A stretch of DNA of 42,296 nucleotides from Sphingobacteriales bacterium (GTDB taxonomy: Bacteria; Bacteroidota; Bacteroidia; Sphingobacteriales; Sphingobacteriaceae), in assembly GCA_013298995.1 (NCBI GenBank), contig JAAFJW010000007.1, forward strand, positions 1 to 42,296. Reading direction: 5' to 3'. Below, piece by piece: positions 1,372 to 15,324 of the stretch. The first letter of the stretch is position 1; the number at the start of each line of letters is the position of its first letter. The notes under the pieces are model-generated. The model did not search any database, was not told where the DNA came from, and was given only the letters and a program-made list of their open reading frames with translations. Made by a program: the position numbers and the translations under genes.

Positions 1372-1743
1372 ATGCAAAAAATACTATATATAGAAGACGA
1401 ATTGTTGATGCAAAACATCGTAGATAAAATACTAACCAGAGAAGGCTACGAAGTGCAAGTAGCCAGCGATGGCAAAACTGGAATGCAAAAACTTACCGAA
1501 AACAACTTTGATTTCGACTTAATAATTACCGATATTATGATGCCTTATGCCAATGGTTTCGAAATTATTAGCAAGATACGAAACCATACCAGCCCTAAAA
1601 AAATACCCATAATTGTGGTATCAACCATTGGAAACGAGGATGCAATATTAGAAGCATTCAAATTAGGTGCTGATGATTTTTTAAAAAAACCAATTATGGC
1701 TGGCGAATTATTAATAAGGGTTAAAAGGCTTGCTGGCCAATAA
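1372..1743 (+). CDS. Stand-alone response-regulator receiver protein
   Basis: The 123-residue protein is a single CheY-type receiver domain with no output domain. The acidic pocket is E8/D9, the phosphoacceptor is D54 in the IITDIMMP segment, S84 stands at the conserved Thr/Ser position, and K106 precedes the conserved proline. It opens a run of six co-directional genes and lies 9 bases before the HEAT-like gene. In this setting it most likely passes a kinase signal by protein contact, perhaps to the HEAT-like protein, to control the polysaccharide machinery downstream; that partner is inferred. The cognate kinase is unknown; the divergent GAF protein at the left edge and the hybrid kinase at 11165-12691 are nearby candidates. 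Domain identity is certain, role uncertain. Confidence 0.9.
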   Translation: MQKILYIEDELLMQNIVDKILTREGYEVQVASDGKTGMQKLTENNFDFDLIITDIMMPYANGFEIISKIRNHTSPKKIPIIVVSTIGNEDAILEAFKLGADDFLKKPIMAGELLIRVKRLAGQ

Positions 1744-1752
1744 TTTACAGGT

Positions 1753-2916
1753 ATGGATTTTAGCTATTTTACAGATGCAAGTGTAGCACAATTATTAGAA
1801 GAGTTTTATTATTCGCCTTTAATTATACAAATAGCTATCTTTTTTATTTTTTTTTCGGTGCTGTGTATTTTGGTAACTTATACCTCCATACTTACCAAAC
1901 GACACAGAGGCTACCGTTTAGAAAAAAAATTAGAACGCATAAACCCGATTATTGATGAACTGATACTAAAAAATATTATTTTTAACGACGAGTTAAATAA
2001 AGAGGTAGAAGAAGGCGAACCAGCAAACTTAATACCGCTCCACGATTTCCAAAAAACCCCATTCAAATCAGCCTTTGGTAAGCAAGCACTTATTAACCGT
2101 ATTATAAGTTTTCGCAAAAGTTTTAAAGGCACCATAGCCTTTTATTTAAGGCAGTTATACATTGATTTAGAACTAGATAAGCAATCGTTTAACAAAATGA
2201 AATCTACCAAGTGGGATAAAAAAGTAGTAGCCTTGGTTGAACTTACGGCTATGGACATGTCCATAGCCGATGTAAATATATTACCCTTAACCAATAGTAA
2301 AAATAGCGAATTACGGGCCGAAGCCAGACACGCTTATATAAAACTAAGCAAAAATGAACCCTTTAAATTTTTTGATGTTGTTACCGAACCTTTATTAATG
2401 TGGGATCAGATACAACTATTTAAAATTATTACCACCACCGAAGATATTGCCATACCTAACTTTGCCCGCTGGGTAACCTATTCTACCAATAAAAGTATCG
2501 TTTCTTTTTGCTTAAAATTAATTGTTTACTACAATCAGGTTGATGGCATACCAGCTGTTATAAAACTATTAGATACTAAAGACCATGACCTAAGAGCTAG
2601 TGCAATAAATTGTTTAGGCAAACTTAAAGTAGATGAAGTAGAAAATAAACTTTTAGATATATATGGCAACCAAACCCTAAATTGCCAAATAGAAATTTTA
2701 AAAGCTATTGGAAGAATAAGAAGTGGAAAATCTATTGATTTTTTAAAGTACGAGTTTTTGCATTCCAGCGATTTTGATTTAAGAAAAAATGCAGCTCGGT
2801 CTATCATAAGCGGAGGCACAAAAGCGCAAGAAACCATACAGCTGCTGTTAGATACCGCCACAAATGAAAATTTATTGATATTAAAACATTGTATGAATCC
2901 TTTAATAAAGTTTTAA
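1753..2916 (+). CDS. Membrane-anchored HEAT-repeat-like protein
   Basis: The 387-residue protein has one strong membrane segment near residues 22-46, followed by a basic stretch (TKRHRGYRLEKKLERI), so the bulk should be cytoplasmic. From about residue 150 on it is built of repeated helix pairs of HEAT type, for example VDGIPAVIKLLDTKDHDLR followed by SAINCLGKLKVDEVENK, and later ILKAIGRIRSGKSIDFLKYE. HEAT arrays are docking surfaces. It lies between a receiver gene (9 bases upstream) and the first GT2 gene (6 bases downstream), so a role as an inner-membrane scaffold linking the signal to the glycosyltransferases is reasonable but inferred. No enzymatic motif is visible. Confidence 0.75.
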   Translation: MDFSYFTDASVAQLLEEFYYSPLIIQIAIFFIFFSVLCILVTYTSILTKRHRGYRLEKKLERINPIIDELILKNIIFNDELNKEVEEGEPANLIPLHDFQKTPFKSAFGKQALINRIISFRKSFKGTIAFYLRQLYIDLELDKQSFNKMKSTKWDKKVVALVELTAMDMSIADVNILPLTNSKNSELRAEARHAYIKLSKNEPFKFFDVVTEPLLMWDQIQLFKIITTTEDIAIPNFARWVTYSTNKSIVSFCLKLIVYYNQVDGIPAVIKLLDTKDHDLRASAINCLGKLKVDEVENKLLDIYGNQTLNCQIEILKAIGRIRSGKSIDFLKYEFLHSSDFDLRKNAARSIISGGTKAQETIQLLLDTATNENLLILKHCMNPLIKF

Positions 2917-2922
2917 AACAAC

Positions 2923-4359
2923 ATGTGGGAATTTATTACATCGTTTTACGAAAGCACCATATTTGTTTATGGCTTAATGCTTTTAATTATTTACGCCATT
3001 TTGGCCATACTATCTTTTATAGCTATTGCCAGCTATGTTAAAAAAAATAAATATTTTGATTACGATGCCATTGTAAGTTCGCCATTAACGCCGGGTATAT
3101 CGGTTATTGCACCCGCATTTAACGAAGGGCTTACCATTATATCGAACGTAAAATCGTTACTAACTTTAAACTATCCAGTTTTTGAAGTTATTATAGTTAA
3201 CGATGGCAGTACCGACGAAACATTGCAATTAATGATAGCCGAATTTAGCTTAATTGTAGTAGAATTTGCTTACAACCCCAAAATCAAAACCCAACCTGTA
3301 AAATGTATTTACAAATCTACCCAAGCGGCGTTTTCTAAACTTATAGTTATTGATAAAGTAAATGGTAAAAGCAAGGCCGATGCCTCAAATGCTGGCGTAA
3401 ATGTGGCCGCATACAATTACTTTTTATGCACCGATGTGGATTGTATATTGGATAAAGATACCCTTTTAAAATTGGTAGAACCCATAATGAAACACAACAA
3501 AGGCCGCGTTATTGCAACAGGTGCAACCCTGCGCATAGCAAATTCTTGCGATTTTGATGGCACATTAATTACCCGTATGCGCCCGCCAAAAAGCCTTATC
3601 CCTAGGTTTCAAGAAATCGAATATATACGCTCGTTTGTAATGGGAAAAGTAGGCTGGGGCTACATTAATTGCGTATCTAACGTATCGGGTGGCTTAGGTT
3701 TGTTTGATAAAGATATTGCTATTAAAGCTGGCGGATACGATTTTTTATCATTTGGCGAAGATATGGATTTAATAACCCGTATGTGCCGATACTCGGTTGA
3801 TAATAAAATAAAATACGCCATTTGCTATGTACCCATAACCCTATGCTGGACCGAAGGGCCAAGCACACTTAAAACCCTAATGCGCCAGCGCACACGCTGG
3901 GCAAGGGGGCTAGCACAAATAGTATCATCCCATTTTAGCCTATTGTTTAATCCTCGGTATGGTAAAATAGGGATGATAGCATTTCCTTACATATTTTTTT
4001 TCGAACTTTTAGCTCCCGTTATTGAGTTTTTAGGAATTCTATATTTCATTTTTCTGATTTATTTTGGATTAATTAACTGGCATTTTGCGCTATTACTACT
4101 TGTATTTGTATATAGCTATGCCGTAATGATTTCTACCCTAGCCATATTATGGGATCAATTTACTTTTAGGTATTATAAAACCTGGGGCGAAGTACTGCGC
4201 CTATGTTTAACCACCTTTCTCGAATTTTTCCTTTTCCATCCCTTTATAGTTATTTTTTCTATCAGAGGATATTTATTCTTTTTAAGCCGTAAAAAACATT
4301 CGTGGGGCAATATGGAGCGAAGAGGGTTTAATAACACAACTTTATCCACAGCTAAATAA
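2923..4359 (+). CDS. GT2-family membrane glycosyltransferase, first paralog
   Basis: This 478-residue protein is a processive-type family 2 glycosyltransferase of the NodC/PgaC/cellulose-synthase group. An N-terminal membrane helix (about 14-38) precedes the GT-A domain. Visible motifs are the nucleotide-sugar Asp in NDGSTD (D94), the metal-binding DVD (171-173), the catalytic-base region FGED (277-280) and the RQRTRW version of QxxRW (321-326). Three or four C-terminal membrane helices (about 347-460) follow and probably form the glycan channel. It is a close tandem paralog of the next gene but lacks that protein's insert after residue 190. It should build a beta-linked polysaccharide at the inner membrane; the sugar cannot be read from the sequence. 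Confidence 0.9.
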   Translation: MWEFITSFYESTIFVYGLMLLIIYAILAILSFIAIASYVKKNKYFDYDAIVSSPLTPGISVIAPAFNEGLTIISNVKSLLTLNYPVFEVIIVNDGSTDETLQLMIAEFSLIVVEFAYNPKIKTQPVKCIYKSTQAAFSKLIVIDKVNGKSKADASNAGVNVAAYNYFLCTDVDCILDKDTLLKLVEPIMKHNKGRVIATGATLRIANSCDFDGTLITRMRPPKSLIPRFQEIEYIRSFVMGKVGWGYINCVSNVSGGLGLFDKDIAIKAGGYDFLSFGEDMDLITRMCRYSVDNKIKYAICYVPITLCWTEGPSTLKTLMRQRTRWARGLAQIVSSHFSLLFNPRYGKIGMIAFPYIFFFELLAPVIEFLGILYFIFLIYFGLINWHFALLLLVFVYSYAVMISTLAILWDQFTFRYYKTWGEVLRLCLTTFLEFFLFHPFIVIFSIRGYLFFLSRKKHSWGNMERRGFNNTTLSTAK

Positions 4360-4369
4360 ACCACAAAAT

Positions 4370-5884
4370 ATGGAATTAACATTTTGGCAAAAAGTTGGTT
4401 ATTTTTACGAAAACATAATTTTTGTGTACGGCATAGCCTTGCTAGGGCTATATGCACTATTAGCCATATTATCATTTATAGGTATAAGGCGGTTTCAAAA
4501 AAGAAACACCTATACCGATTACACAAAAATACTACAATCGCCACTGACACCAGGTATTTCGATAATTGCCCCAGCGTTTAACGAAGGAGTTACCATTATA
4601 CAAAATGTACGCTCGTTACTTACACTTAACTACCCACGTTACGAAGTTATTATTATTAACGATGGCAGTACCGACGATACACTCGAAAAACTAATTGCCG
4701 AATTTGAATTAACCGAAGTAGCCTTTGCCTACAACCCACGCATACAAACACAGCCCGTAAAACGGATATTCAAATCATTTAATTCGGCTTACGATAAACT
4801 TTTGGTAGTAGATAAAGAAAACGGAAAATGCAAAGCCGATGGTGCCAATGCAGGTATAAACGCTTCGGCGTTCGATTATTTTTTATGTACCGATGTGGAT
4901 TGTATTATCGAAAAAGATACGCTACTAAAAATGATTAAACCCTTTATGGACGAACAAAACTCAACCATAAAACTGATAGGTAAACCTTGTGAAGAATGTG
5001 GCTTTCAACACATTATTGAAAACAATCAACGTGTAATAGCTACTGGTGCAACCCTGCGTGTAGCCAATTCATGCGAAATAGACGAAGGTGTGATTACACG
5101 TATTAAACCCCCTAAAAAATTAATCCCAAGGTTTCAAGAGCTTGAGTACATACGATCGTACGTATTAGGTAAAATGGGCTGGAGCATGATAAACTGTGTG
5201 CCCAATATATCGGGCGGCTTGGGTTTATTTGATAAAGATATTGCCATAAAAGCTGGCGGCTACGATCATAAATCGTTTGCCGAAGATATGGATATTATGA
5301 CCCGTATGTGTACCTATATGATAGATAACGGCAAAAAATACGCCATACGCTACATACCCACCACACAATGCTGGACAGAAGGGCCACCCAACCTAAAAAT
5401 ATTTAGCCGCCAGCGCACCCGCTGGGGGCGTGGCTTGGCTCAAATAATGAAAATACATAAAAAAGTAATTTTAAACCCCAAATATGGCCGGTTAGGCTTG
5501 GTGGTTTTTCCCTACAATCTTTTCTTCGAGTTTTTAGCACCTATTATTGAATTTACAGGTATTTTATACTACATCTACATTATTATAACAGGGCAAATAA
5601 ATTGGCATTTTGCACTTATATTATTGCTTTTTGTTTACCTATACTCGGTAATGATAAGCACATTAGCCATATTATGGGACCAGCTTACCTACCGCTATTA
5701 CAACACCTGGCGAGAGGTGTTAGGCCTAAGCCTAATGGCATTTTTAGAACCTTTTTTATATCATCCCTTAATTGTTTTTTTCGCTTTACGCGGATACGTG
5801 TTTTTCCTTTTTGGCACCAAACAAAAATGGGGAAATATGCAAAGGCAAGGGTTTGCCAAAAAAGCAACTGTACAACAAGTTTAA
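4370..5884 (+). CDS. GT2-family membrane glycosyltransferase, second paralog
   Basis: The 504-residue protein has the same design as its upstream neighbour: N-terminal helix (about 17-40), GT-A domain with NDGSTDD (D98), DVD (175-177), AED (304-306) and RQRTRW (347-352), then C-terminal membrane helices from about 370. Conservation of every catalytic motif means both copies should be active. It differs by an insert of about 27 residues (193-219) carrying C207, C210 and H214 in a CEECGFQH context, which could bind a metal or form a disulfide. The gene follows its paralog by 10 bases. Two GT2 enzymes could make a heteropolymer, form a heterocomplex, or serve different polymers; the sequence does not decide. 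Confidence 0.9.
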   Translation: MELTFWQKVGYFYENIIFVYGIALLGLYALLAILSFIGIRRFQKRNTYTDYTKILQSPLTPGISIIAPAFNEGVTIIQNVRSLLTLNYPRYEVIIINDGSTDDTLEKLIAEFELTEVAFAYNPRIQTQPVKRIFKSFNSAYDKLLVVDKENGKCKADGANAGINASAFDYFLCTDVDCIIEKDTLLKMIKPFMDEQNSTIKLIGKPCEECGFQHIIENNQRVIATGATLRVANSCEIDEGVITRIKPPKKLIPRFQELEYIRSYVLGKMGWSMINCVPNISGGLGLFDKDIAIKAGGYDHKSFAEDMDIMTRMCTYMIDNGKKYAIRYIPTTQCWTEGPPNLKIFSRQRTRWGRGLAQIMKIHKKVILNPKYGRLGLVVFPYNLFFEFLAPIIEFTGILYYIYIIITGQINWHFALILLLFVYLYSVMISTLAILWDQLTYRYYNTWREVLGLSLMAFLEPFLYHPLIVFFALRGYVFFLFGTKQKWGNMQRQGFAKKATVQQV

Positions 5885-5898
5885 CACAAGCTAAAAAA

Positions 5899-8787
5899 AT
5901 GAAATACTTAAATTTTAATACGCAAACCTTACTTAAATACAGTGCAATATGCTTGTTTGTAACATTAGCTACAACATTAAACGCACAAAATTTATTTAAA
6001 AACCAAGCCGACGAATATTACAGCCAAGCCATACAACAAACCCAAGCCAAGCACTATCCCAAAGCCATTTTACTAGCAAAGGAAGCATTAAACCAACGTA
6101 ATAATTTTTCGGATGCCCAAATTTTATTGGCCAAGCTGTATATGCTTACCAAGCAAAATAATTTGGCTTTAAAGCAAGTTAAAGATGTTTTAGAACGAGA
6201 ACCTAGGTATATTGATGCCTATTATTACGCTACTAACATCGAACTTAAAAATGGTAGATTTGAAGAAGCTTTGTGTTTTGTAGATGATGGATTATATTAT
6301 TTCCCACTTGATAAACATTTATTACTAAAAAAACTAGCCGTATTAGATACCGCCCGCCAAGTGTATAAAGGCAACGAACATGCCGACTATTTGCTAAAAC
6401 GTTTCCCTAACGATAGCACCGTAGAACGGGCTTACGTTTACCACCACATTACTACAGGGCAATATTATATGCGCCGAAAAAACACCCTATCGGCAATAGA
6501 AAATTTTATAAAAGCACTAGAGGTAGACCCCGAAAATACCGAAGCTACCCAATATTTATTTAACGCATACAGCAAAAGTGGCAATACCCAAGCAGCATTA
6601 GAACGGCTAAACAAAAGCCTGCTCGAAAACCCAAAATCATACCCTTATTTGATGAAAAAAGCGGGAATGCTAGAAGATACTTACCAATATGCCGAAGCCA
6701 TAAGCATTTTAAATTATATAGCAAAACTATACCCCAACTCCGATGCCCGAAAACGAGCTACAAATTTAAGGCTTACCGCAGCCAGGTTTTACGCCAATAA
6801 AGACCCCTACACCCTATACGAAGGTATTGCCGAACAATCTCCAGGAAACCGAGAAGTTATAAACAAATTAATAGCTTTAAATATGACCCACGAGCAATAC
6901 AATACCGCCTTAGGGTACATTAATAAAACTTTAAAAAACAACCCCAACGAAGAGTTTTTACTAGCCACCAAGGTTGATATTTTAACCTATCAAAAAAAAT
7001 ACACCCAAGCAGGTTACATAGCGCAAAAACTGTATGCCCGTAACAATAGCAAATACCGCCAAACTTTATTAGAACTAAAACTAGCCAGTGCCAAAGATTT
7101 TACAGCACAGCAAATGCCCGATTCGGCCATTGTAGAATACCAAAACGCATTAAAACTGGATGCCCGAAACAGCTACGCCCTAAATAACCTTAGCAATATT
7201 TACGTAGCCCAAAAAAATTACGATAAAGCCTTAGAAATAATTAACAAAGCCTTAAAATTATACCCAAATAATGAAGGCTTATTGTTAAAAAAATCGAGCA
7301 TATTGTTTGATGCTGGTAATATAGATGATGCCATTGCGGTATCAAAAAAACTGGTACTTAAAAACCCAAAAAACCCTAAATACTTGGCTATTTATACCGA
7401 CCAAAGTATGGCAGCAGGTAGCAATTTTATGAAAACCGAAGATTTTGACGAAGCCCGCGAGCAGTTAAAAAACGTAATTGCACAACAACCCAATAACCCA
7501 CAAGCTTTAAACTATTTAATAAATTTAGAAAGCGGTAGCAACAATTACAGCCAAGCATTAGCCTACATAAATACCGCTTTAAAAAACAATCCCAATAATA
7601 AAGAGCTGTTGCTAAAAAAAGCAAGTGTGCTACAGGATATGAAAAACTATAAAGAAGCCTACGCCATAAGCAGTAATTTAATGGCTCGCTACCCGTACAA
7701 AACCTTATATAAAAAATCTTACATTTTACAAACCATAGCATCAGGCAGGGCATACCAAAAATTAAATATGCCCGATAGTGCTTTGCTCGAATATCAAAAA
7801 GCATTAGCCGTATCGCCTACCGATTCGATGGCATTAATTTACACCATTAATACTTTAAACGATAAAAAACAAAACGATTCAACCTTAAAATACATACATG
7901 CTGGTATTAGCGCATACCCCAAAAGCGAGTATTTTCAGTTACAACGAACGGCATATTTGGCAAGTAAAAAACTATATCCCGAAGCTATTTTAGCTGCCGA
8001 TAGTTTGGTAAAAATTAACCCATCGCTGGCAAATATAGATTATGCGGCAATGCTAAAAAGCAAATCGTACCGAGACCAATTTGGCTTATTTTTTTTACAC
8101 ACCACGTTCGATGATAAAAACCTAACCGCATTTAATATTGCCACATTAGAGTATCGCCACTTTTTAAACAAAGGCAAAGGTGCTTACGCCGGCCGTGTAA
8201 ATTACGCTGCCCGCAACCAAGGTACTGGCATACAAGCCGAAGCAGAATTGTATTATAACCATAACCCTAAATTATATTCGTACGCTACGGCAGCCATATC
8301 AAACCAAATAATTTTTCCGCAAATATTGCTACGCTACTCGGCTTTTAAAATGCTAAGCAAAACTTGGGAAGGCGAAGCAGGCTTACGTTATTTTAAAAGC
8401 ATAAACTTTACCACCACATCTTTTGTACTATCGGCAGCCAAAACCTATAACGATTTTTGGTTTAACTTACGTGGATTTATAGTACGCGACCAAAACAGCA
8501 ATTTTTATAATGTAGCTAATTTTACAGGCCGCCATTTTATGAATAACGGGCAAGAGTATGTATCCTTTAACGCTGGCATAGGTAACTCGCCCGATGATGT
8601 AAGTACGCTTATACAGTTTCCTGCCTTGCAAGGTGTGGCCAGCGGCAACGTAGGCGTAGGTTACCAAAAAACTTTTAAATACCGTACCGCAGTAGGTATA
8701 AATGCCAACTGGATAAACCAAAAAATAAACAATACCAATTACCGCAACCAGTACGATATATACCTTACTTTTTTAAGGAGGTTTTAA
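5899..8787 (+). CDS. TPR-rich exported protein with C-terminal YaiO-type outer-membrane beta barrel
   Basis: The start at 5899 is chosen because it gives a clear signal peptide (about residues 1-30, ending TTLNAQ) and follows the upstream gene directly; an in-frame ATG at 5602 would run 99 codons through the glycosyltransferase gene. The 962-residue product has many tetratricopeptide repeats from about 31 to 710, with tandem units such as ALEVDPENTEATQYLFNAY and ALKLDARNSYALNNLSNIY. From about 724 to the C-terminal Phe it becomes amphipathic beta strands of the YaiO barrel type. PgaA, the poly-GlcNAc exporter, has the same TPR-plus-barrel layout. The likely job is to carry polymer made by the two glycosyltransferases across the periplasm and outer membrane. 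Architecture is well supported, substrate is inferred. Confidence 0.85.
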   Translation: MKYLNFNTQTLLKYSAICLFVTLATTLNAQNLFKNQADEYYSQAIQQTQAKHYPKAILLAKEALNQRNNFSDAQILLAKLYMLTKQNNLALKQVKDVLEREPRYIDAYYYATNIELKNGRFEEALCFVDDGLYYFPLDKHLLLKKLAVLDTARQVYKGNEHADYLLKRFPNDSTVERAYVYHHITTGQYYMRRKNTLSAIENFIKALEVDPENTEATQYLFNAYSKSGNTQAALERLNKSLLENPKSYPYLMKKAGMLEDTYQYAEAISILNYIAKLYPNSDARKRATNLRLTAARFYANKDPYTLYEGIAEQSPGNREVINKLIALNMTHEQYNTALGYINKTLKNNPNEEFLLATKVDILTYQKKYTQAGYIAQKLYARNNSKYRQTLLELKLASAKDFTAQQMPDSAIVEYQNALKLDARNSYALNNLSNIYVAQKNYDKALEIINKALKLYPNNEGLLLKKSSILFDAGNIDDAIAVSKKLVLKNPKNPKYLAIYTDQSMAAGSNFMKTEDFDEAREQLKNVIAQQPNNPQALNYLINLESGSNNYSQALAYINTALKNNPNNKELLLKKASVLQDMKNYKEAYAISSNLMARYPYKTLYKKSYILQTIASGRAYQKLNMPDSALLEYQKALAVSPTDSMALIYTINTLNDKKQNDSTLKYIHAGISAYPKSEYFQLQRTAYLASKKLYPEAILAADSLVKINPSLANIDYAAMLKSKSYRDQFGLFFLHTTFDDKNLTAFNIATLEYRHFLNKGKGAYAGRVNYAARNQGTGIQAEAELYYNHNPKLYSYATAAISNQIIFPQILLRYSAFKMLSKTWEGEAGLRYFKSINFTTTSFVLSAAKTYNDFWFNLRGFIVRDQNSNFYNVANFTGRHFMNNGQEYVSFNAGIGNSPDDVSTLIQFPALQGVASGNVGVGYQKTFKYRTAVGINANWINQKINNTNYRNQYDIYLTFLRRF

Positions 8788-8798
8788 TGGTATTGTAA

Positions 8799-11054
8799 AT
8801 GAAAAAACTATTCCCCATTATACTGCTTTTGTTTTTTTCGCTTACCGCGGATGCCTGTAAAGCTGGCCAAAAAACTTTGGTATTGGTGGCAAATGAGGCG
8901 GCTAAAACCCAAATAATTATTCCCGAAAATGCCACCATTGCCGAGCAAAAAGCAGCCCTAATTTTACAAACCTATATACAAAAAATAAGCAAGGCCAGCC
9001 TGCCCATAAATACCGAAAAAAAATGGAATAAAAATACGGCCATATTTATTGGGCGTACTGCATTGGCCGAAAATTACCATCCCACCAAAATAAAAAATGA
9101 TGGCTTTTTTATTGCCACCACCGCCAATAGTTTGGTAATATGTGGCGGTAGCGGCAAAGGCGTGGTGTATGGCGTTTACCATTTTTTAGAAAACTATTTG
9201 GGTTGCCATAAATACGCCAACGTACCTGCAAGCATAAAAACCAATAGCCAAATTAGCGTATCCTCGCCAATATGGGATTTACAAAATCCGCAATTTGTGT
9301 ACCGGCAATCGTATTACCCTGCATCGCTTGATACCGAATATATGGATTGGCATAAGCTGCAAAATTTCGAAGATTTATGGGGGCTGTGGGGGCATTCGTT
9401 TTTTAAAATCATCCCACCAAAAAAATATTTTAAAACCAACCCCAGCTATTTTGCAATGGTAAATGGGCAAAGGCAAGCCACCCAGCTATGTTTAAGCAAT
9501 GCCGAGGTTTACAAATTAACTATCCAATATTTTAAGTTGGCTATGGCCGATAAGCCCGATGCGCAATACTGGTCTATTGCGGCAAACGATGATGAAGGTT
9601 TTTGTACTTGCCCTAATTGCCAAAAAATTGATGCCCAAGAAGGAGGACCACAGGGTTCGCTAATACGGTTTGTAAATAGTGTGGCTAGGCAGTTTCCTGA
9701 TAAAATATTTACCACATTGGCATACACCTACACCGCAAAACCTCCCAAAACAAAACCCTTAAAAAATGTTTACTCAATTTTAAGTACCATTGATGCTTAC
9801 CGAAGCAACCCATTACCTACCGAAACCAGTGCCGCCACTTTCGGTAAAAATCTAAATAGCTGGTCGGCTTTAACATCAAATATTTTTGTATGGGATTATA
9901 GCACCCAGTTTACCAATTATTTATGCCCTTTCCCTAATTACGATAACGCAAAACCCAATTTATTTTTTTTGGCTGGTGCCGATGTTAAAGGCGTATTTGT
10001 ACAGGGTAGTGGCTATACATATAGCGATATGGCCGAGTATAACAGCTACTTACAAGCCAAATTATTATGGAACCCAAATGCCGATATTGTACAAATAAAA
10101 CAAGATTTTTTAAACGGCTATTACGGTAAAGCAGCACCATATATTGATAATTATTTAAGCCTACTAAAGCAAAACCTACATACAAAAAAAATAAATTTAG
10201 ATATTTACGGCAACCCGATAAACAATTATGCCAATTATTTATCACCACAAAATATAGATGAATACGCTCAACTATTAGATAAAGCCGAAGCAGCGGTTGA
10301 AACCCAAGCCAATATTTTACAGCGTGTAGCAAATGTACGTTTAGGATTAGATTTTGTGGTTTTACAACAATCAAAATTTTTTGGTTCTGAAAAATTTGGT
10401 TACCAAATAAAAGATGAAGAAAGCCAAAATGTTACCATAAACCCCAAGTGGCCAGCAAAAGTTAAAAAATTTGTTGCCCAATGTAAACTAGCCGGCGTTA
10501 CCGAACTAGCCGAAGGCGGCCAAAGCCCCGAAGCCTACCAAGCCGAGTGGGAACTTATTTTTACAAAACCATTTATACCCAACAAAGCTTTAAACGCCAG
10601 CATAAAATTAACCTACCCTTTTACACCCGATTTTGCTGCAAAAAAAGAAAAAACCTTGGTTGATAATGTTAACGGCTATTTAGATTTTAGTTATAATTGG
10701 CTGTTTTTTTATAACACCAATTTGGTAGCAACCATTGACTTGAATTCACCAAAAAAATTTAACCAAGTACAAACCCAGTTTTTATTGGATCCAAGGCATT
10801 ATATTTTTTTACCCACACAAGTAGTTTTAGAAACTTCAATAGATGGTATAAATTTTAAAACCCAAGGCATACAAAGCCTTGCCCCTACCGATGAAGATTA
10901 TACTGCCAGCATAAAAAAAGTAGGTTTTAATTTCCCCAATTTTACAGCAAGGTACATACGGTTAACGGCTGTATGCCCCAGCCAGTTGCCACAATGGCGT
11001 ATAAATAGCCGTAAAAAACCAGCTATTTGTTGTGATGAGATAAGTGTGTGGTAA
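8799..11054 (+). CDS. Exported DUF4838 / GH67-N-like protein, possible polysaccharide-processing enzyme
   Basis: The 751-residue protein starts with a signal peptide (MKKLFPIILLLFFSLTADAC); C20 sits in a poor lipobox, so lipoprotein or soluble export are both possible. Residues about 30-150 resemble the N-terminal domain of alpha-glucuronidases (GH67), including the GGSGKGVVYGVYHFLENYLG segment. The central DUF4838 region contains C269, C271 and C274 in FCTCPNCQ and an FVWDYSTQF segment typical of that family. The last 140 residues look like a discoidin-type (F5/8) sugar-binding module. It follows the YaiO gene by 11 bases and is the last gene of the run. A hydrolase or modifying enzyme acting on the exported polymer is plausible; no catalytic activity is known to me for DUF4838 itself. 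Confidence 0.75.
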   Translation: MKKLFPIILLLFFSLTADACKAGQKTLVLVANEAAKTQIIIPENATIAEQKAALILQTYIQKISKASLPINTEKKWNKNTAIFIGRTALAENYHPTKIKNDGFFIATTANSLVICGGSGKGVVYGVYHFLENYLGCHKYANVPASIKTNSQISVSSPIWDLQNPQFVYRQSYYPASLDTEYMDWHKLQNFEDLWGLWGHSFFKIIPPKKYFKTNPSYFAMVNGQRQATQLCLSNAEVYKLTIQYFKLAMADKPDAQYWSIAANDDEGFCTCPNCQKIDAQEGGPQGSLIRFVNSVARQFPDKIFTTLAYTYTAKPPKTKPLKNVYSILSTIDAYRSNPLPTETSAATFGKNLNSWSALTSNIFVWDYSTQFTNYLCPFPNYDNAKPNLFFLAGADVKGVFVQGSGYTYSDMAEYNSYLQAKLLWNPNADIVQIKQDFLNGYYGKAAPYIDNYLSLLKQNLHTKKINLDIYGNPINNYANYLSPQNIDEYAQLLDKAEAAVETQANILQRVANVRLGLDFVVLQQSKFFGSEKFGYQIKDEESQNVTINPKWPAKVKKFVAQCKLAGVTELAEGGQSPEAYQAEWELIFTKPFIPNKALNASIKLTYPFTPDFAAKKEKTLVDNVNGYLDFSYNWLFFYNTNLVATIDLNSPKKFNQVQTQFLLDPRHYIFLPTQVVLETSIDGINFKTQGIQSLAPTDEDYTASIKKVGFNFPNFTARYIRLTAVCPSQLPQWRINSRKKPAICCDEISVW

Positions 11055-11098
11055 AATAATAGCAGGCCTTATTGTTATTTGCAACAAATAGCTGGTTT
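11016..11098. terminator. Perfect 17-bp inverted repeat across the DUF4838 stop codon, between convergent operons
   Basis: AAACCAGCTATTTGTTG (11016-11032) is exactly mirrored by CAACAAATAGCTGGTTT (11082-11098). The left arm is inside the last codons of the DUF4838 gene, the stop codon lies in the 49-base loop, and the hybrid-kinase gene ends at 11165 on the other strand. The position suits a bidirectional transcription barrier or an mRNA 3'-end stabiliser. There is no long U-run after the stem, so it is not a standard intrinsic terminator. Confidence 0.45.
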
Positions 11099-11164
11099 AT
11101 TGGCTGTAAAATATATTGTATTACACAGCCAAGTATGCTTTTTATATACTTTATTTACAGATAA

Positions 11165-12691
11165 TTAAATATTCATTTTACGTAAATTCTCAACAAATAT
11201 TTTTTCTATTGCTATAAGTAAATCTTGTTTTAAAAAAGGTTTGCTTACATAACCACTTATACCTGCAAGCGTGTATTTTTCAATTTCAGCGGCATTGGCA
11301 GTTATAGCTATTATAGGTATATTACTAATGGTTGGGTTGGGGTGTGTTTTTATTTTCCGACTCGCCTCAAAGCCATTCATTTCTGGCATTTCTATGTCCA
11401 TTAAAATCAAATCGAAATATTTTTGCTTTACTATTTCCAATACCTCCACCCCGTTTTTTGCAGTTTCTATTGTTAAATTAGGGTACTCTTTCAACATTTT
11501 TTTTATTAGCGTAATGTTTACTTCATTATCATCGGCAATTAAAATTTGTAAACAGGTTTCGGTTAAGGGTATTTTTTGATTGATGGATGGATTTTCTACA
11601 ATGCCATTTGCTGTTTGCATAGGGATAGATACTTGTACACAGGTGCCTTGTTTTACCCCTGATAAAATTTGCATTTTACCATTCATGTTTTCAACCAGTT
11701 TTGTTACAATTGAAAGCCCCAAGCCCGAGCCTTCGATATCTGTTTGATGGAATTTTGTAAAACTGTTGATACTATTTTGTTTAGCATCTGGGAAACCTAT
11801 ACCTGTATCGGTAATGCTAAAATTAAATTCAACCGAGTTTTCATTTATGGTTTTACTTGTAATATTTAAACTAACACTTCCTTCGTTGGTAAATTTGAAA
11901 GCATTATCCAGCAAATTGATAAATATTTGCAATATCCTTGTTTTATCGCAAACTAAAAATGGAGGTATATTTTGTTGTATAACGGGGTTAAACAGCAAGT
12001 TTTTGGATGCCAAAATAGGCGTGTATATTTTTTGAATATGATTTATTAAATCGTAAACCGAAAAAGTGTTATAATTTATTTTTAATTCACCCGCTTCAAT
12101 TTTTGATAAATCTAGCAAATCATCAATTAATGATTTAATATGGTTACCACTTTTTCTGATTGTGTTTATTAAATCTTTTTGTTCGTTATTTAGCGGGGTT
12201 TTATCCAAAATTTCTAAAAAGCCTAGCACTGCGCCTAGGGGTGTTTTTAGGTCGTGGCTTATATTTGCAAGAAACTTGTTTTTAAATTTTTTTTCGCTAA
12301 TGTGTTGTTTTTCTTTTAGTAATTGTGTTTCTAGGGCAATAATACTGTCGTTTCTTCGCTGCACAATGGTTTGTAAATAATCGCAATTTTCGGTAAAATC
12401 ATAAAAAATAAGGTATGGATTTAAGGCATCGCTTCCCGAAAAAAATACGATATTGTAATTTCCCTTTACCCCGTTAATTTCCAAGTTTACACAGTGAAAA
12501 ACATGTTCTTTATTTTTATCGGGTAAAAGGTGGTTTATGGTTTCAAAAAATGGATGTAAATTACTTATTTGTGTGCCCTTGTTTGTTTCAAATAAGTAGT
12601 TATCAGTTTCGGTTATACGTCCATCGTGGCCAATTACTATAATTTGGCATTTACTGTTAATATATTTTTCTTTTAAAAACTCGGTTATCAT
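11165..12691 (-). CDS. Hybrid sensor histidine kinase with C-terminal receiver
   Basis: The 508-residue protein has a PAS-like N-terminal region (about 10-105), a helical linker, an HisKA domain with H146 in FLANISHDLKTPL, an HATPase domain (N263 in LLDNAFKF, DTGIGF at 295-300, GSGLGL at 321-326), and a receiver (about 382-500) with D432 in LILMDIEMPEMNG. No membrane segment is present, so it senses a cytoplasmic cue or a protein partner. Its ATG overlaps the stop of the small-GTPase gene by 4 bases, which implies coupled translation. A natural model is that the GTPase or the longin-like protein controls the kinase. There is no DNA-binding output domain, so a further phosphotransfer partner elsewhere is expected. 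Confidence 0.92.
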   Translation of the reverse strand: MITEFLKEKYINSKCQIIVIGHDGRITETDNYLFETNKGTQISNLHPFFETINHLLPDKNKEHVFHCVNLEINGVKGNYNIVFFSGSDALNPYLIFYDFTENCDYLQTIVQRRNDSIIALETQLLKEKQHISEKKFKNKFLANISHDLKTPLGAVLGFLEILDKTPLNNEQKDLINTIRKSGNHIKSLIDDLLDLSKIEAGELKINYNTFSVYDLINHIQKIYTPILASKNLLFNPVIQQNIPPFLVCDKTRILQIFINLLDNAFKFTNEGSVSLNITSKTINENSVEFNFSITDTGIGFPDAKQNSINSFTKFHQTDIEGSGLGLSIVTKLVENMNGKMQILSGVKQGTCVQVSIPMQTANGIVENPSINQKIPLTETCLQILIADDNEVNITLIKKMLKEYPNLTIETAKNGVEVLEIVKQKYFDLILMDIEMPEMNGFEASRKIKTHPNPTISNIPIIAITANAAEIEKYTLAGISGYVSKPFLKQDLLIAIEKIFVENLRKMNI

Positions 12692-13176
12692 TTTATCAAG
12701 TTTTTTGCTAGGTCATTAAAAATGAGTTCTACATTTTCTCCTGTTTTTGCACTCGAAAAATAATCAATTTTTAATTTATTGTTTTCTGCAATTTTTATGA
12801 AGGTGTTTTTTTCTATAAGGTCTATTTTATTTGCTACGGTAAGTAAATTTATTTTTGGATAATGGGTTTCTATATAATTTATTTCATCCGATAAATTAAT
12901 ATAAGTTGATTCTCTGGTGGCATCAAAAACATAAATAAAGCCTGATGTACCTAGTAAAAAACTTGGGCGTAATTTTTGCATATCTTCTTTGCCCTCAATA
13001 TCCCAAATTATTAAAGTTATTTCATCGTTATTTATCTGCACTGTTTTTTTTACAATATGCACCCCTACGGTTACCAAATAATCATCCGAAAAACTGTTTT
13101 TAACAAACCGTCTAATTAGCGATGATTTACCCACACCAAAATGACCTACTAAAACAATTTTTTTTAAGCTAAGCAT
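12688..13176 (-). CDS. Ras/Rab-like small GTPase
   Basis: The 162-residue protein is a single small G domain close in layout to eukaryotic Rab and to the prokaryotic Ras-like families (MglA and relatives). Motifs: P-loop GHFGVGKS (11-18), switch I Thr T36 in VTVGV, switch II WDIEGKE (58-64), NKID (116-119) and SSAK (141-144). The residue equivalent to the catalytic Gln of Ras is Lys (K63), so intrinsic GTP hydrolysis is probably slow and dependent on a partner. Its start overlaps the end of the longin-like gene by 8 bases and its end overlaps the kinase start by 4. There is no lipid-attachment motif. Family is certain, physiological role unknown. Confidence 0.93.
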   Translation of the reverse strand: MLSLKKIVLVGHFGVGKSSLIRRFVKNSFSDDYLVTVGVHIVKKTVQINNDEITLIIWDIEGKEDMQKLRPSFLLGTSGFIYVFDATRESTYINLSDEINYIETHYPKINLLTVANKIDLIEKNTFIKIAENNKLKIDYFSSAKTGENVELIFNDLAKNLIK

Positions 13177-13978
13177 TTATAAAATATTCTTTTAATTTTT
13201 GTTCAATATATTGTTTATTTCCGATATTTTTTTTGATGTGTTTATTTGCAAAATCAAATAAATCGTTTTCTACCCTGTTTTTAAAAACAGCATCAAACTT
13301 ACCCGATATTACTGCTGATATGTAATAGGTTGGGAAATTTTGAAGGTATATTTTATATAATTCGTACTCTATTAATTCTAAATTTTGGTCGCCTTTTATA
13401 AAAGCATCTTCTACAAAACTTTTTATGGCGGTTAGCATTCCTGCCAGCAAATCTTCATCTATAGTATCGGTATTAGAGTATCGGGCAATTATAAGTCCCG
13501 AGCCTTTTTCGATAATAAACAGTTGTAAAATTTTTGATTTTGCCATATCGGCCAATACAAAATCTATTTCGCTTACGCCGCTAAAAAACGACATTATCTT
13601 TCTGTACCAATATTTGAATGAAAGTTTTTGATTTATTTGGGCATTAATATTATCCGAAAGCGTTTTCATCTCGCTTTGGATATATTTTTTAATCATTTTA
13701 CCCAACAATGGAAATAAAATATTTACTACCTCATCTTGCGAATTTTTTATTTGCTCGGATAGTGCCTCGGTAATTGTTGGGCCTAGTTTTACTGGTATTT
13801 CTTCAACAAAGCTGGTTAGTTTGCGGCTAATTATTGGCTCAACTTTTTGTGATAGCTTTTCATCAATATTAACAGTATCGGTAAGGGTATCTACTTTTTC
13901 TAAAATTTTGTTAGCAAAGTTTCGGTCTTCGTCTAACAGAAGATCCCTTAATAAGGTTAATTTTTCGGCATCAGTCAT
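13169..13978 (-). CDS. Longin/roadblock-like GTPase-partner protein
   Basis: The 269-residue protein has a helical N-terminal half (about 1-130) with a segment around VEPIISRKLTSFVEE and ILFPLLGKMIKKYI, and a C-terminal alpha/beta domain (about 148-265). That domain has a strand-turn-strand ILQLFIIEKGSGLIIARYS, a helix LLAGMLTAIKSFVEDAF and a later strand FPTYYISAVISG, the signature I associate with roadblock/longin folds and with a family of N-terminal domains in some OmpA-like proteins of other phyla. Roadblock/longin proteins are the usual partners or activators of Ras-like GTPases (MglB for MglA). The gene overlaps the GTPase gene by 8 bases. A role as GTPase regulator or effector is therefore likely but inferred. 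Confidence 0.65.
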   Translation of the reverse strand: MTDAEKLTLLRDLLLDEDRNFANKILEKVDTLTDTVNIDEKLSQKVEPIISRKLTSFVEEIPVKLGPTITEALSEQIKNSQDEVVNILFPLLGKMIKKYIQSEMKTLSDNINAQINQKLSFKYWYRKIMSFFSGVSEIDFVLADMAKSKILQLFIIEKGSGLIIARYSNTDTIDEDLLAGMLTAIKSFVEDAFIKGDQNLELIEYELYKIYLQNFPTYYISAVISGKFDAVFKNRVENDLFDFANKHIKKNIGNKQYIEQKLKEYFINA

Positions 13979-13987
13979 TTTAAAGGT

Positions 13988-14386
13988 TTAGTAATCCTTT
14001 AAAATATTTTCGCCCATGTTAACCAATAATTCGCCCAAAGTTTTTCTATCTACTTTTTTGTGGGTTAACGTGGCAACGCTATCATTCGTTTTCGAATCCA
14101 GTTCGGTAATTCTGATATTCAAATCAGTTTCCAAATTATCAATCGTTTGCGATAGTTCTTTGTTTACTAATGCAATGTAATTTTCTAAATCCTCTTTTTT
14201 CTTATCTATTTCGTCTCTTAAAGTTTGAAAATCGCTATCAATTTGTTGGATATTTTCTCCAAAAATAAGATTTTTTATTGCTTCAATCCTCGAGGCTGAT
14301 TCTGGATGGTTAGCAGCCGTACTTGCTTCAATATTAGTTTCTATTGGTAAGGCACTTTCGTTATCTTTTTGTTGATTTTTAGACAT
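13988..14386 (-). CDS. Coiled-coil protein of the small-GTPase operon
   Basis: The 132-residue protein has a polar, probably disordered N-terminus (1-30), a helix with AIKNLIFGENIQQIDSDF, a long coiled coil (about 45-105) of alternating hydrophobic heptads, and a short C-terminal segment RKTLGELLVNMGENILKDY. It is the first gene of the minus-strand signalling operon, 9 bases upstream of the longin-like gene. The LFGENIQ start and the LGELL end look family-specific rather than random, and I associate this type of protein with small-GTPase/longin neighbourhoods in other bacteria, from memory only. A structural or oligomerising subunit of the complex is the simplest guess; no enzymatic motif is present. 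Confidence 0.65.
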   Translation of the reverse strand: MSKNQQKDNESALPIETNIEASTAANHPESASRIEAIKNLIFGENIQQIDSDFQTLRDEIDKKKEDLENYIALVNKELSQTIDNLETDLNIRITELDSKTNDSVATLTHKKVDRKTLGELLVNMGENILKDY

Positions 14387-14410
14387 TTAATTATTATTAT
14401 TTTTTTTTAC

Positions 14411-14418
14411 CAAAAATA
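14411..14418 (-). promoter_or_regulatory. Weak candidate -7 box for the GTPase operon
   Basis: Read on the minus strand this is TATTTTTG, which fits the Bacteroidota TAnnTTTG consensus, about 25 bases before the coiled-coil gene start at 14386. The expected TTG box about 20 bases upstream is not well matched, and the surroundings are A/T-rich, so a chance match is quite possible. Confidence 0.3.
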
Positions 14419-14468
14419 AAAAAAAATTAATGTTATAACATGTTTATTGTTATTTATTTAAGTAAAAA

Positions 14469-14488
14469 ATGTAATATTTTTGTTACAT
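14469..14488. promoter_or_regulatory. Small palindrome ATGTAA-N8-TTACAT upstream of the GTPase operon
   Basis: ATGTAA (14469-14474) and TTACAT (14483-14488) form a symmetric site in the 185-base gap between the GTPase operon start and the end of the acidic-protein gene. It could be an operator or a weak hairpin. Its half-sites and spacing are compatible with a dimeric regulator, but no regulator gene is adjacent. Confidence 0.25.
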
Positions 14489-14571
14489 AGAATGTGTTTT
14501 TAATTTTGGTGTGCCATCTTATTGCAGTAAGTGCATTTAATGAGGGTATTTTTTCAAAATAAAAAAAAATC

Positions 14572-15324
14572 TTATTCCTCTTCATCCTCACCTTCTCTTC
14601 CCCAGTATTCATCTTTCCAATTGTCCATCCTATTCATTGCCTCCATCTCATCTATAACTCCTGTATTAACTAGTATTTCTAAACAAGACATAGCGGTATT
14701 TTGGTCATCAGTTTCATCAATTATCGTGTTTAGTTTTTCTATTAATTGTTTATCAAGTTCGCTTTCGCTTAGGTCGTAATAATTTGCTAAAGCTTCTAAA
14801 GCTGCGTACTGTTCTTTGTTCCCTTTACTTTCTATAGACTTTAAAAGCAAGGCTCTAGCGTCTTTAATCACATAGTAATCAAGTAACTCTGAAATGGTTT
14901 TTAGTGCGTTTGAGCGGCGTTCGTCACAACTTTTGGTTTCTTCATTTTTTAAGTTTAATACTTGAATACTTAACTCCAAAATTAATAATAATATTTTTTT
15001 GTGCTTATTGGAGTAATCTTCACCCAGTAATAGTTCTTCATTTTCATCAACTTCAAAATCACTTAGTATGATAAAATTAAATGGTAAATCGATTATAGTT
15101 TTCCAAAAATCATCTTCTATATGCCTTATAATTCTGTTTCTAGTTTTAGCCATTAGCAAAATTTTATCACATAGTTTAACCATATCAGTGTACTCAACAT
15201 TGTAATAGTCTATACAGTTTAAGTCCATGCACAAGCTTTTATGCACATTTTTACCTGCTTTTTTCTCGATAATTAAATCAACAATCGAGCATATTTCTTC
15301 AATAGTTTTAAAATTATGTTTCAT
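14572..15324 (-). CDS. Uncharacterised acidic helical protein
   Basis: I do not recognise this 250-residue protein. It looks cytosolic and mostly helical, with no signal peptide or membrane segment. The middle and C-terminal parts (about 130-225) resemble a short run of HEAT/ARM-like helix pairs, including KEQYAALEALANYYDLSESE and TAMSCLEILVNTGVIDEMEA. The C-terminus is very acidic and ends in GREGEDEEE. Two Cys (32 and 37) flank a short asparagine-containing segment without a clear metal motif. It lies 19 bases downstream of the DMT permease gene and may be read with it. Possible roles include an adaptor or an immunity-type protein, but nothing in the sequence proves either. Confidence 0.6.
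   Translation of the reverse strand: MKHNFKTIEEICSIVDLIIEKKAGKNVHKSLCMDLNCIDYYNVEYTDMVKLCDKILLMAKTRNRIIRHIEDDFWKTIIDLPFNFIILSDFEVDENEELLLGEDYSNKHKKILLLILELSIQVLNLKNEETKSCDERRSNALKTISELLDYYVIKDARALLLKSIESKGNKEQYAALEALANYYDLSESELDKQLIEKLNTIIDETDDQNTAMSCLEILVNTGVIDEMEAMNRMDNWKDEYWGREGEDEEE

Follow-up and report, generated by a model that had tools for sequence, protein, structure and literature searches.

Among the ways in which membrane polysaccharide synthases are controlled, c-di-GMP is the best known, and several described systems share parts with the locus analysed here. PgaABCD (PNAG) has in common with it a GT2 synthase, a TPR protein with an outer-membrane barrel and an exported polymer-acting protein, which is predicted in our case; the lipoprotein PgaB itself includes a hydrolase domain. 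In contrast to PgaABCD, the locus contains a receiver, a HEAT-repeat protein and a DUF4838 protein, and Pfam revealed no polysaccharide deacetylase of the PgaB type among the six operon proteins (for the TPR protein, among the best 25 of 28 families). With the type II cellulose system of E. coli (BcsA/B/C/G), the locus shares a membrane synthase and an outer-membrane exporter, while BcsB was found neither by Pfam nor by NCBIfam among the six genes. BcsG is an alkaline-phosphatase-superfamily transferase, and the same superfamily provides the LtaS-like PF00884 partners that are present at many homologous loci and absent from the operon described here. In E. coli YaiO/YaiP, a YaiO-domain outer-membrane protein of unproven function is located beside a GT2 enzyme, and we know of no receiver, HEAT or DUF4838 protein there. 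According to the available part of one account, the Bcs synthase module depends on c-di-GMP (PMC11470070). The accessible portion of the Bundalovic-Torma survey of synthase-dependent exopolysaccharide operons describes locus duplications and fusions, as also found here, and its main text, to the same extent, contains the terms 'Bacteroid', 'HEAT' and 'receiver' 0 times (PMC7112194).

The analysed window comprises 42,296 nucleotides of contig JAAFJW010000007.1 from a Sphingobacteriales bacterium. Six open reading frames on the plus strand occupy positions 1372 to 11054, separated by gaps of 9, 6, 10, 14 and 11 bases in this order. The first-pass annotation, made from the letters alone, had described six adjacent genes with short gaps and assigned domains; gaps of 6-14 bases, a single direction and the Pfam matches agree with this description, which nevertheless overlooked a truncated kinase gene, an insert in the second synthase, the paralogy of the two synthases and the recurrence of the arrangement elsewhere. 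An inverted repeat at 11013-11101, with 20-nt arms (11013-11032 and 11082-11101) that are 95% complementary, spans the operon end and is a possible terminator. Upstream, an AT-rich intergenic stretch (211-1371) separates the operon from the divergent kinase gene. No Rfam family reached its gathering score in the window, including this stretch, and promoter-like sites upstream of the operon occurred at chance level (8 found versus 8.4 expected). The locus is best read as a variant of synthase-dependent exopolysaccharide secretion; its probable product is an exported, slime-like polymer of sugars. With somewhat better than even confidence, we read it as such a locus in which a kinase-receiver-HEAT-GT2 phosphorelay serves as the switch, a TPR-YaiO protein as the exporter and a DUF4838 protein as the processing component.

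The core of the arrangement is the pairing of the HEAT protein with the synthase. The HEAT protein (1753-2916, plus strand; HEAT_2, 39.4 bits) carries a single N-terminal membrane span at residues 23-41 as judged by hydropathy, and its sequence matches in the PDB are designed and natural repeat proteins, which are uninformative on function. A GT2 gene directly follows HEAT in 40/40 loci around HEAT matches (the best 40 of 66 match places), and HEAT lies directly 5' of the GT2 subfamily in 72 of the 74 testable GT2-selected loci; because of these two counts, which like all locus counts here are over related loci with shared ancestry ignored, the gene arrangement exceeds chance. The 74 derive from 80 named loci, of which four were left out with the GT2 gene at a contig edge, as were L110 and L126, where a longer antisense frame displaced the GT2 frame during ORF picking and where the gap is still preceded by HEAT and followed by YaiO. 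The two exceptions are L131, whose upstream frame of 132 residues is truncated where the contig begins, and L154, a HEAT-GT2 fusion in which a Clostridium protein matches HEAT_2 weakly ahead of the GT2 domain (23.5 bits, below the cut-off of 27.7). HEAT was undetectable in 5/20 divergent loci. Flanked clusters, with at least two genes on each side, number 123 of the 142 found, and within them HEAT occurs in 38/38 chosen by HEAT, 66/66 chosen by GT2 and 14/19 divergent ones chosen by GT2.

HEAT-GT2 loci include members of Bacillota, Gemmatimonadota, Myxococcota and Terriglobia, and where the first-pass annotation had allowed that its families might rarely co-occur elsewhere, they were found together in many genera. 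Judged by these sequence comparisons, the set of six genes represents one subtype of a receiver-HEAT-GT2 core that recurs, and not a unique assembly. The remark that no described system has exactly this composition stands uncontradicted in the open-access literature among the matches listed, where no description of a receiver-HEAT-GT2-YaiO locus was found; it needs the qualification that the core is recurrent. DUF4838 is mentioned in a single listed paper, YaiO together with 'Bacteroid' in two whose titles point to other subjects, and no such operon appears in the available parts of accounts of F. collinsii (PMC9950754) and, among the best 12 of 36 text places, of B. cereus (PMC5911993). The GT2 enzyme encoded by fpgA of F. 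psychrophilum was considered and rejected, as the available text describes a 319-residue enzyme in a different operon (PMC4293000).

The stand-alone receiver (1372-1743, plus strand; Response_reg, 96.5 bits) contains the phospho-acceptor D54, K106 and the acidic pair E8/D9, and the phospho-accepting Asp is kept in 80/84 stand-alone receivers. In 88/123 flanked clusters, the first or second gene 5' of HEAT encodes a receiver, and adjacent receiver-HEAT pairs are at most 60 bases apart in 74/79 cases, with a median of 9. Kinases are concentrated upstream of the receiver (31/100 versus a background of 8/648). In the window, the N-terminal 70 residues of a hybrid sensor histidine kinase are encoded on the minus strand at 1-210, truncated by the contig end; 66/70 of them are identical to the start of L065:8486-12442, whose 1318-residue product contains PAS, HisKA, HATPase_c and two receiver domains. 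Both ends of the intergenic stretch are conserved in comparison with L065, its middle much less; L065 occurs twice among the 142 clusters, outside the 123. Outside Bacteroidota, receivers were found in 7/8 scanned upstream proteins, four of the seven with GGDEF, and the C-terminal receiver was closest to the stand-alone type in 5/6 scored upstream proteins; at L160, L162, L163 and L164, no receiver was seen upstream.

The first-pass annotation had suggested that receiver and HEAT protein replace the usual second-messenger control. The genome of the window gave neither GGDEF nor PilZ matches, and Pfam detected no PilZ domain on either synthase. Because GGDEF occurs in 1/31 and PilZ in 0/31 Bacteroidota genomes carrying the system, control genomes giving matches for both, and because kinases lie upstream of the receiver, this suggestion gains genomic support: the sugar-linking enzyme appears to be under the control of a two-component relay that acts by way of the HEAT membrane protein, and not of c-di-GMP. 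An exopolysaccharide locus could also be organised differently, with HEAT as an assembly scaffold or co-polymerase in the role of PgaD or BcsB and a receiver that governs another target, such as the localisation of the scaffold or a partner outside the operon. The membrane anchor on HEAT would suit such a role, as would the 30/118 flanked clusters with HEAT in which it adjoins GT2 without a nearby receiver. We consider this arrangement rather unlikely, since the receiver stands immediately 5' with the short spacing given above, its phospho-site is conserved and kinases are enriched upstream.

GT2 synthases A (2923-4359) and B (4370-5884), both on the plus strand and with Pfam matches of 71 and 67 bits, are the first and second copy of a tandem duplication in fixed order; B is a paralogue of A, 65% identical to it. 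Only the second, B, carries a 22-residue insert (4952-5017, plus strand) with a CxxC-x3-H motif (C207, C210, H214). An alignment of 23 homologues shows N93/D94/G95, D171/D173, E279/D280 and Q322/R323/R325/W326 to be invariant, which we take to be the GT2 catalytic motifs. Hydropathy indicates several C-terminal membrane spans past the catalytic domain, a feature of processive synthases, and the inner-membrane part of the general synthase-dependent kind, a GT2 enzyme with catalytic motifs and C-terminal spans, is thus present here. Sequence matches in the PDB represent the generic GT2 fold and do not name the sugar. That the GT2 pair instead makes a surface glycolipid or modifies protein or LPS glycans, while the YaiO protein has a separate envelope role, appears improbable to us. 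LtaS-like PF00884 proteins, the partners at many homologous loci, act in known systems on lipid-linked or periplasmic glycans, and 26/123 flanked clusters are without YaiO inside five genes, which would fit that idea, but YaiO is found within this range in 97/123, and the C-terminal spans argue in the same direction.

The exporter candidate (5899-8787, plus strand, start ATG at 5899), exported according to a signal peptide recognised by eye, combines TPR repeats (TPR_19, 143.6 bits) with a C-terminal YaiO barrel at about 8074-8784 (PF19413, 113.1 bits, cut-off 23.9; TIGR04390, 75.6 bits, cut-off 32). The barrel model resembles channels including PgaA, to which it aligns with a TM of 0.57-0.59 and a Z of 14.3 (4y25). 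Synthase-dependent exporters have 16-18 barrel strands according to the available part of PMC9601211. The periplasmic TPR part and outer-membrane barrel of the general kind are present here, with 14 predicted strands versus 16-18. The label 'Pga-like', taken as membership, did not survive, and a diverged but true Pga/PNAG system is very improbable: PgaC_IcaA is the top NCBIfam model for both synthases, and TPR plus a barrel that aligns to PgaA would suit it, but the locus does not class as Pga. The synthases score 113.3 and 115.0 bits against PgaC (TIGR03937, cut-off 422), and the TPR-YaiO protein scores 37.9 bits against PgaA (TIGR03939, cut-off 367), most strongly within its TPR region; in addition, 14 strands are predicted for the barrel, and no deacetylase was seen among the six genes.

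The DUF4838 protein (8799-11054, plus strand; PF16126, 294.1 bits, cut-off 26.6) is exported, with a weak lipobox at C20, and consists of a glycoside-hydrolase-like core (residues ~23-592) and a CBM32/F5_F8-like C-terminal domain (~593-751); further Pfam matches are Glyco_hydro_67N (28 bits) and F5_F8_type_C (29.6 bits). Its structure model is similar to GH115, GH84 and BT0459 (6q63: Z 23.9, rmsd 11.7, 521 aligned; GH115 4zmh: Z 18.4, rmsd 4.3, 491 aligned; GH84 6rhe: Z 16.3, rmsd 3.8, 359 aligned). D264, D366, H199 and E572 are invariant and represent catalytic candidates only. Of 68 YaiO genes found, 62 with a downstream gene were kept, and the DUF4838 gene accompanies a long TPR in 22/22 cases and a short one in 5/40; of the 28 DUF4838 frames in this comparison, those of L137 and L114 are short at the N-terminus. 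The product is thus a predicted glycoside-hydrolase-like protein linked to the long TPR arm, and the earlier proposal that it acts on the polymer is favoured by the predicted fold and this association.

Taken as an assembly line from inner to outer membrane, as the first-pass annotation had proposed, the locus fits a synthase-dependent exopolysaccharide system best, for which we infer the direction of signalling, the physical contacts, polymerisation, export and polymer processing. The two paralogous membrane GT2 enzymes would polymerise a nucleotide sugar and drive the chain through the inner membrane, from where the periplasmic TPR arm would lead it to the YaiO outer-membrane barrel. The DUF4838 protein, probably lipid-anchored, may dock on the long TPR arm and trim or bind the chain. 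A post-translational switch would run from the hybrid kinase through the stand-alone receiver and the membrane HEAT protein to GT2, and this phosphorelay would substitute for c-di-GMP control in genomes mostly without GGDEF or PilZ proteins.

In the overall weighing, near-obligate HEAT-GT2 adjacency across phyla, the Clostridium fusion, the kept phosphorylation residues, kinase enrichment and the rarity of GGDEF and PilZ were among the points for the best explanation; a receiver in only 88/123, a kinase in only 31/100, no HEAT in 5/20 divergent loci and 14 strands versus 16-18 were among those against it.

A broader proposal, which we offer tentatively, is that receiver and HEAT form a general allosteric switch of a large unnamed family of exopolysaccharide synthases, through which a phosphorelay would take the part played for cellulose by c-di-GMP and PilZ, with receiver-GGDEF-receiver forms outside Bacteroidota bridging to c-di-GMP. 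The subtype in the window would then be an obligate A+B pair, in which a CxxC knuckle that binds metal and is present only in B joins or gates the two synthases, with the long TPR and the DUF4838 hydrolase as a co-evolved processing module.

If true, a receiver-HEAT-synthase cassette that extends from Bacteroidota to Bacillota would represent a second way to switch such synthases, and it would provide a defined genetic handle on matrix biology in a phylum that is prominent in the environment and in the gut. With its two synthases in fixed order and its CxxC insert, the subtype found here would likewise make it possible to ask in a bacterium whether a synthase pair makes one polymer.

The first-pass annotation had described six adjacent genes in the window, and all six were recovered on the forward strand, separated by gaps of 9, 6, 10, 14 and 11 bases. 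Pfam and NCBIfam assign them to a receiver (1372-1743), a HEAT_2 protein (1753-2916), two GT2 synthases (GT2-A, 2923-4359; GT2-B, 4370-5884), a TPR protein with a YaiO domain (5899-8787) and a DUF4838 protein (8799-11054) that also carries GH67-N-like and F5/8-type C domains. In NCBIfam, the YaiO domain scores 75.6 bits (cut-off 32), while PgaC_IcaA, the top curated model for both synthases, reaches 113-115 bits and stays far below its cut-off of 422. Hydropathy predicts a single N-terminal membrane span for the HEAT protein, and an N-terminal span plus a C-terminal span cluster for the synthases. The annotation had overlooked the start of a hybrid histidine kinase gene at 1-210 on the reverse strand, which is cut by the window edge. 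Of its 70 residues, 66 are identical to the kinase start in the closely related locus L065, where the full protein has 1318 residues with PAS, HisKA, HATPase_c and two receiver domains. The 1.16 kb separating kinase and operon are conserved at either end, with much lower conservation in between. A second gene row converges on the operon from downstream. It contains another hybrid histidine kinase (11165-12691), a Ras-type small GTPase on the reverse strand (12688-13176; PF00071, 115 bits) and two proteins (13169-13978 and 13988-14386) for which Pfam returned no match over cut-off.

HEAT protein and synthase are nearly always neighbours in these loci; all locus counts refer to related sequences. 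Among 296 Bacteroidota genomes, the HEAT protein found matches in 46 and GT2-A in 70 (E ≤ 1e-40). GT2 matches were present in 40 of the 46 HEAT genomes, and the HEAT matches of the other six were 3.5e-5 or weaker. When loci were chosen by HEAT, a GT2 gene followed directly in 40/40 (40 of the 66 places listed). When 80 named loci were chosen by GT2 instead (the top 80 out of 309), 72 of the 74 judgeable cases had a HEAT gene immediately upstream in the same orientation, and HEAT matches are rare overall (76 of 1158 ORFs across these 80 loci). One of the two exceptions is cut by its contig; the other, L154 from a Clostridium MAG, encodes one protein in which a stretch of about 500 residues, matched weakly by HEAT_2 (23.5 bits against a cut-off of 27.7), lies N-terminal to the GT2 domain. 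A HEAT profile was also applied to another 20 loci, of which 19 came from genomes missed by the simple HEAT search; it revealed an upstream HEAT gene in 15 and none in five. Judged by record titles, the pair also occurs in Bacillota, Gemmatimonadota, Myxococcota, Terriglobia and Neomarinimicrobiota. Much longer HEAT proteins (about 640-1190 residues) are encoded in L047, L049, L051, L118, L119, L136 and other loci; the first three were scanned with Pfam and contain HEAT only.

In 88 of 123 clusters with at least two genes on both sides (142 clusters were found), the first or second gene upstream of HEAT encodes a receiver. Including the window's own, 84 stand-alone receivers were compared, of which 80 keep D54 and 83 keep K106. 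In 31/100 clusters, a histidine kinase is encoded among the two genes preceding the receiver, compared with 8/648 other ORFs. Among 31 system-carrying genomes of our choice, GGDEF was detected in one and PilZ in none, versus eight and five of 14 controls in the same search. Outside Bacteroidota, upstream proteins were scanned in eight loci: seven contain receivers, four of these also GGDEF, and the eighth (L160) is a TPR protein. In three additional loci of this kind, L162, L163 and L164, no receiver match was found upstream of HEAT. In multi-receiver proteins, the C-terminal receiver was closest to the stand-alone type in five of six scored, the exception being L149. This pattern fits a receiver that would act on the HEAT protein, with GGDEF gained or lost; we infer such signalling from gene order. 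In L272, the position of the stand-alone receiver directly upstream of HEAT is occupied by an actin-like protein (5853-6872; ALP_N, weakly MreB-like_C), and L269-L271 have genes of the same size there (L272 alone was scanned).

GT2-A and GT2-B are 65% identical and both keep the catalytic motifs. A tree of 42 sequences groups the seven first copies together (support 100/99). One change likewise suffices to set the seven second copies apart from them, although these are drawn as two branches split at a weak fork (84/84) rather than as a resolved clade. A single duplication would be compatible with this tree. At every column conserved to at least 90% in 115 single-copy GT2 proteins, at least one member of each copy group retains the conserved residue, though F264 (copy B numbering) is changed to Y in six of the seven second copies. 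An insert with the motif PCxECGxxH is present in all seven second copies and in those of two more tandem loci, L273 and L274; its two cysteines occur in 0/115 single-copy proteins. Because L091, one of these 115, and L270-L272 have a cysteine-free insert at the same place, the insert as such may be older. Among the 251 genomes searched from the window's family, with the best six candidates per genome scored, GT2 was found in 39 (E ≤ 1e-90) and an adjacent pair in four (G000, G310, G393 and G389). The six-gene order recurs in L085 (Chitinophaga sp. YR627), L086 (DUF4838 gene cut by the contig end), L087, L102, L273 and L274. L087 is a complete locus on a contig labelled Beijerinckiaceae that lies closest to Chitinophaga in the GT2 tree, and it is probably a misassigned contig or binning error.

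The structure model of the YaiO domain and last TPRs (mean pLDDT 93.5) has 14 strands; according to PMC9601211, known synthase-dependent exporters have 16-18. FadL-type channels, Omp33, CymA and OmpG come closest among solved barrels, with many ties at Z about 19-21, and the PgaA barrel 4y25 matches with TM 0.57-0.59 and Z 14.3. DUF4838 comes next after TPR-YaiO proteins of at least 600 residues in 22/22 cases, versus 5/40 after shorter ones (Fisher 2e-12, ignoring kinship of the sequences). We read this as a long TPR arm that would dock the DUF4838 protein, as the TPR part of PgaA is thought to dock PgaB. The DUF4838 model (pLDDT 90) matches GH115 and GH84 enzymes and BT0459, named a beta-hexosaminidase, from residue 23 to about residue 592; its C-terminus resembles CBM32-like modules. 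W197-G198-H199, C231, D264, C269, C271, C274, D366 and E572 are invariant in 14 sequences and, except for C269, in a second set of seven; H199, D264, D366 and E572 are candidate catalytic residues at most. By our own loose pattern, a lipobox-like motif is present in 20 of 28 DUF4838 proteins longer than 600 residues and is weak in the window's protein. Across the 296 genomes, DUF4838 occurs at 25 places in 23 genomes, with nine of the places, by coordinates, at a GT2 locus of the window's synthase family; it is not specific to the receiver-HEAT-GT2 system.

Other loci add further enzymes. A PF00884-type alkaline-phosphatase-superfamily protein, separate or fused to GT2, is encoded in 48 of the 123 flanked clusters and has no counterpart in the window's operon; two were scanned, with LtaS as top NCBIfam model below cut-off. 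By analogy to BcsG and cellulose, these loci suggest a polymer with phospho-group decoration. In L067, a glycerophosphodiester phosphodiesterase (14225-15106) trails the PF00884 gene behind GT2, which would fit decoration of a phosphoglycerol type. In L269, L270, L271, L272 and L091, a protein of about 800 residues with an NAD epimerase part and a PLP-enzyme-like second half lies between YaiO and DUF4838, hinting at polymers with an unusual sugar; the epimerase part from L272 scores 308 bits with the UDP-sulfoquinovose synthase model, below the cut-off of 575.

On the features tested, membership of the Pga or Bcs systems was rejected. The window locus resembles Pga and Bcs secretion in its working mode, and it matches synthase-dependent exopolysaccharide secretion, as a general kind, on the testable points.
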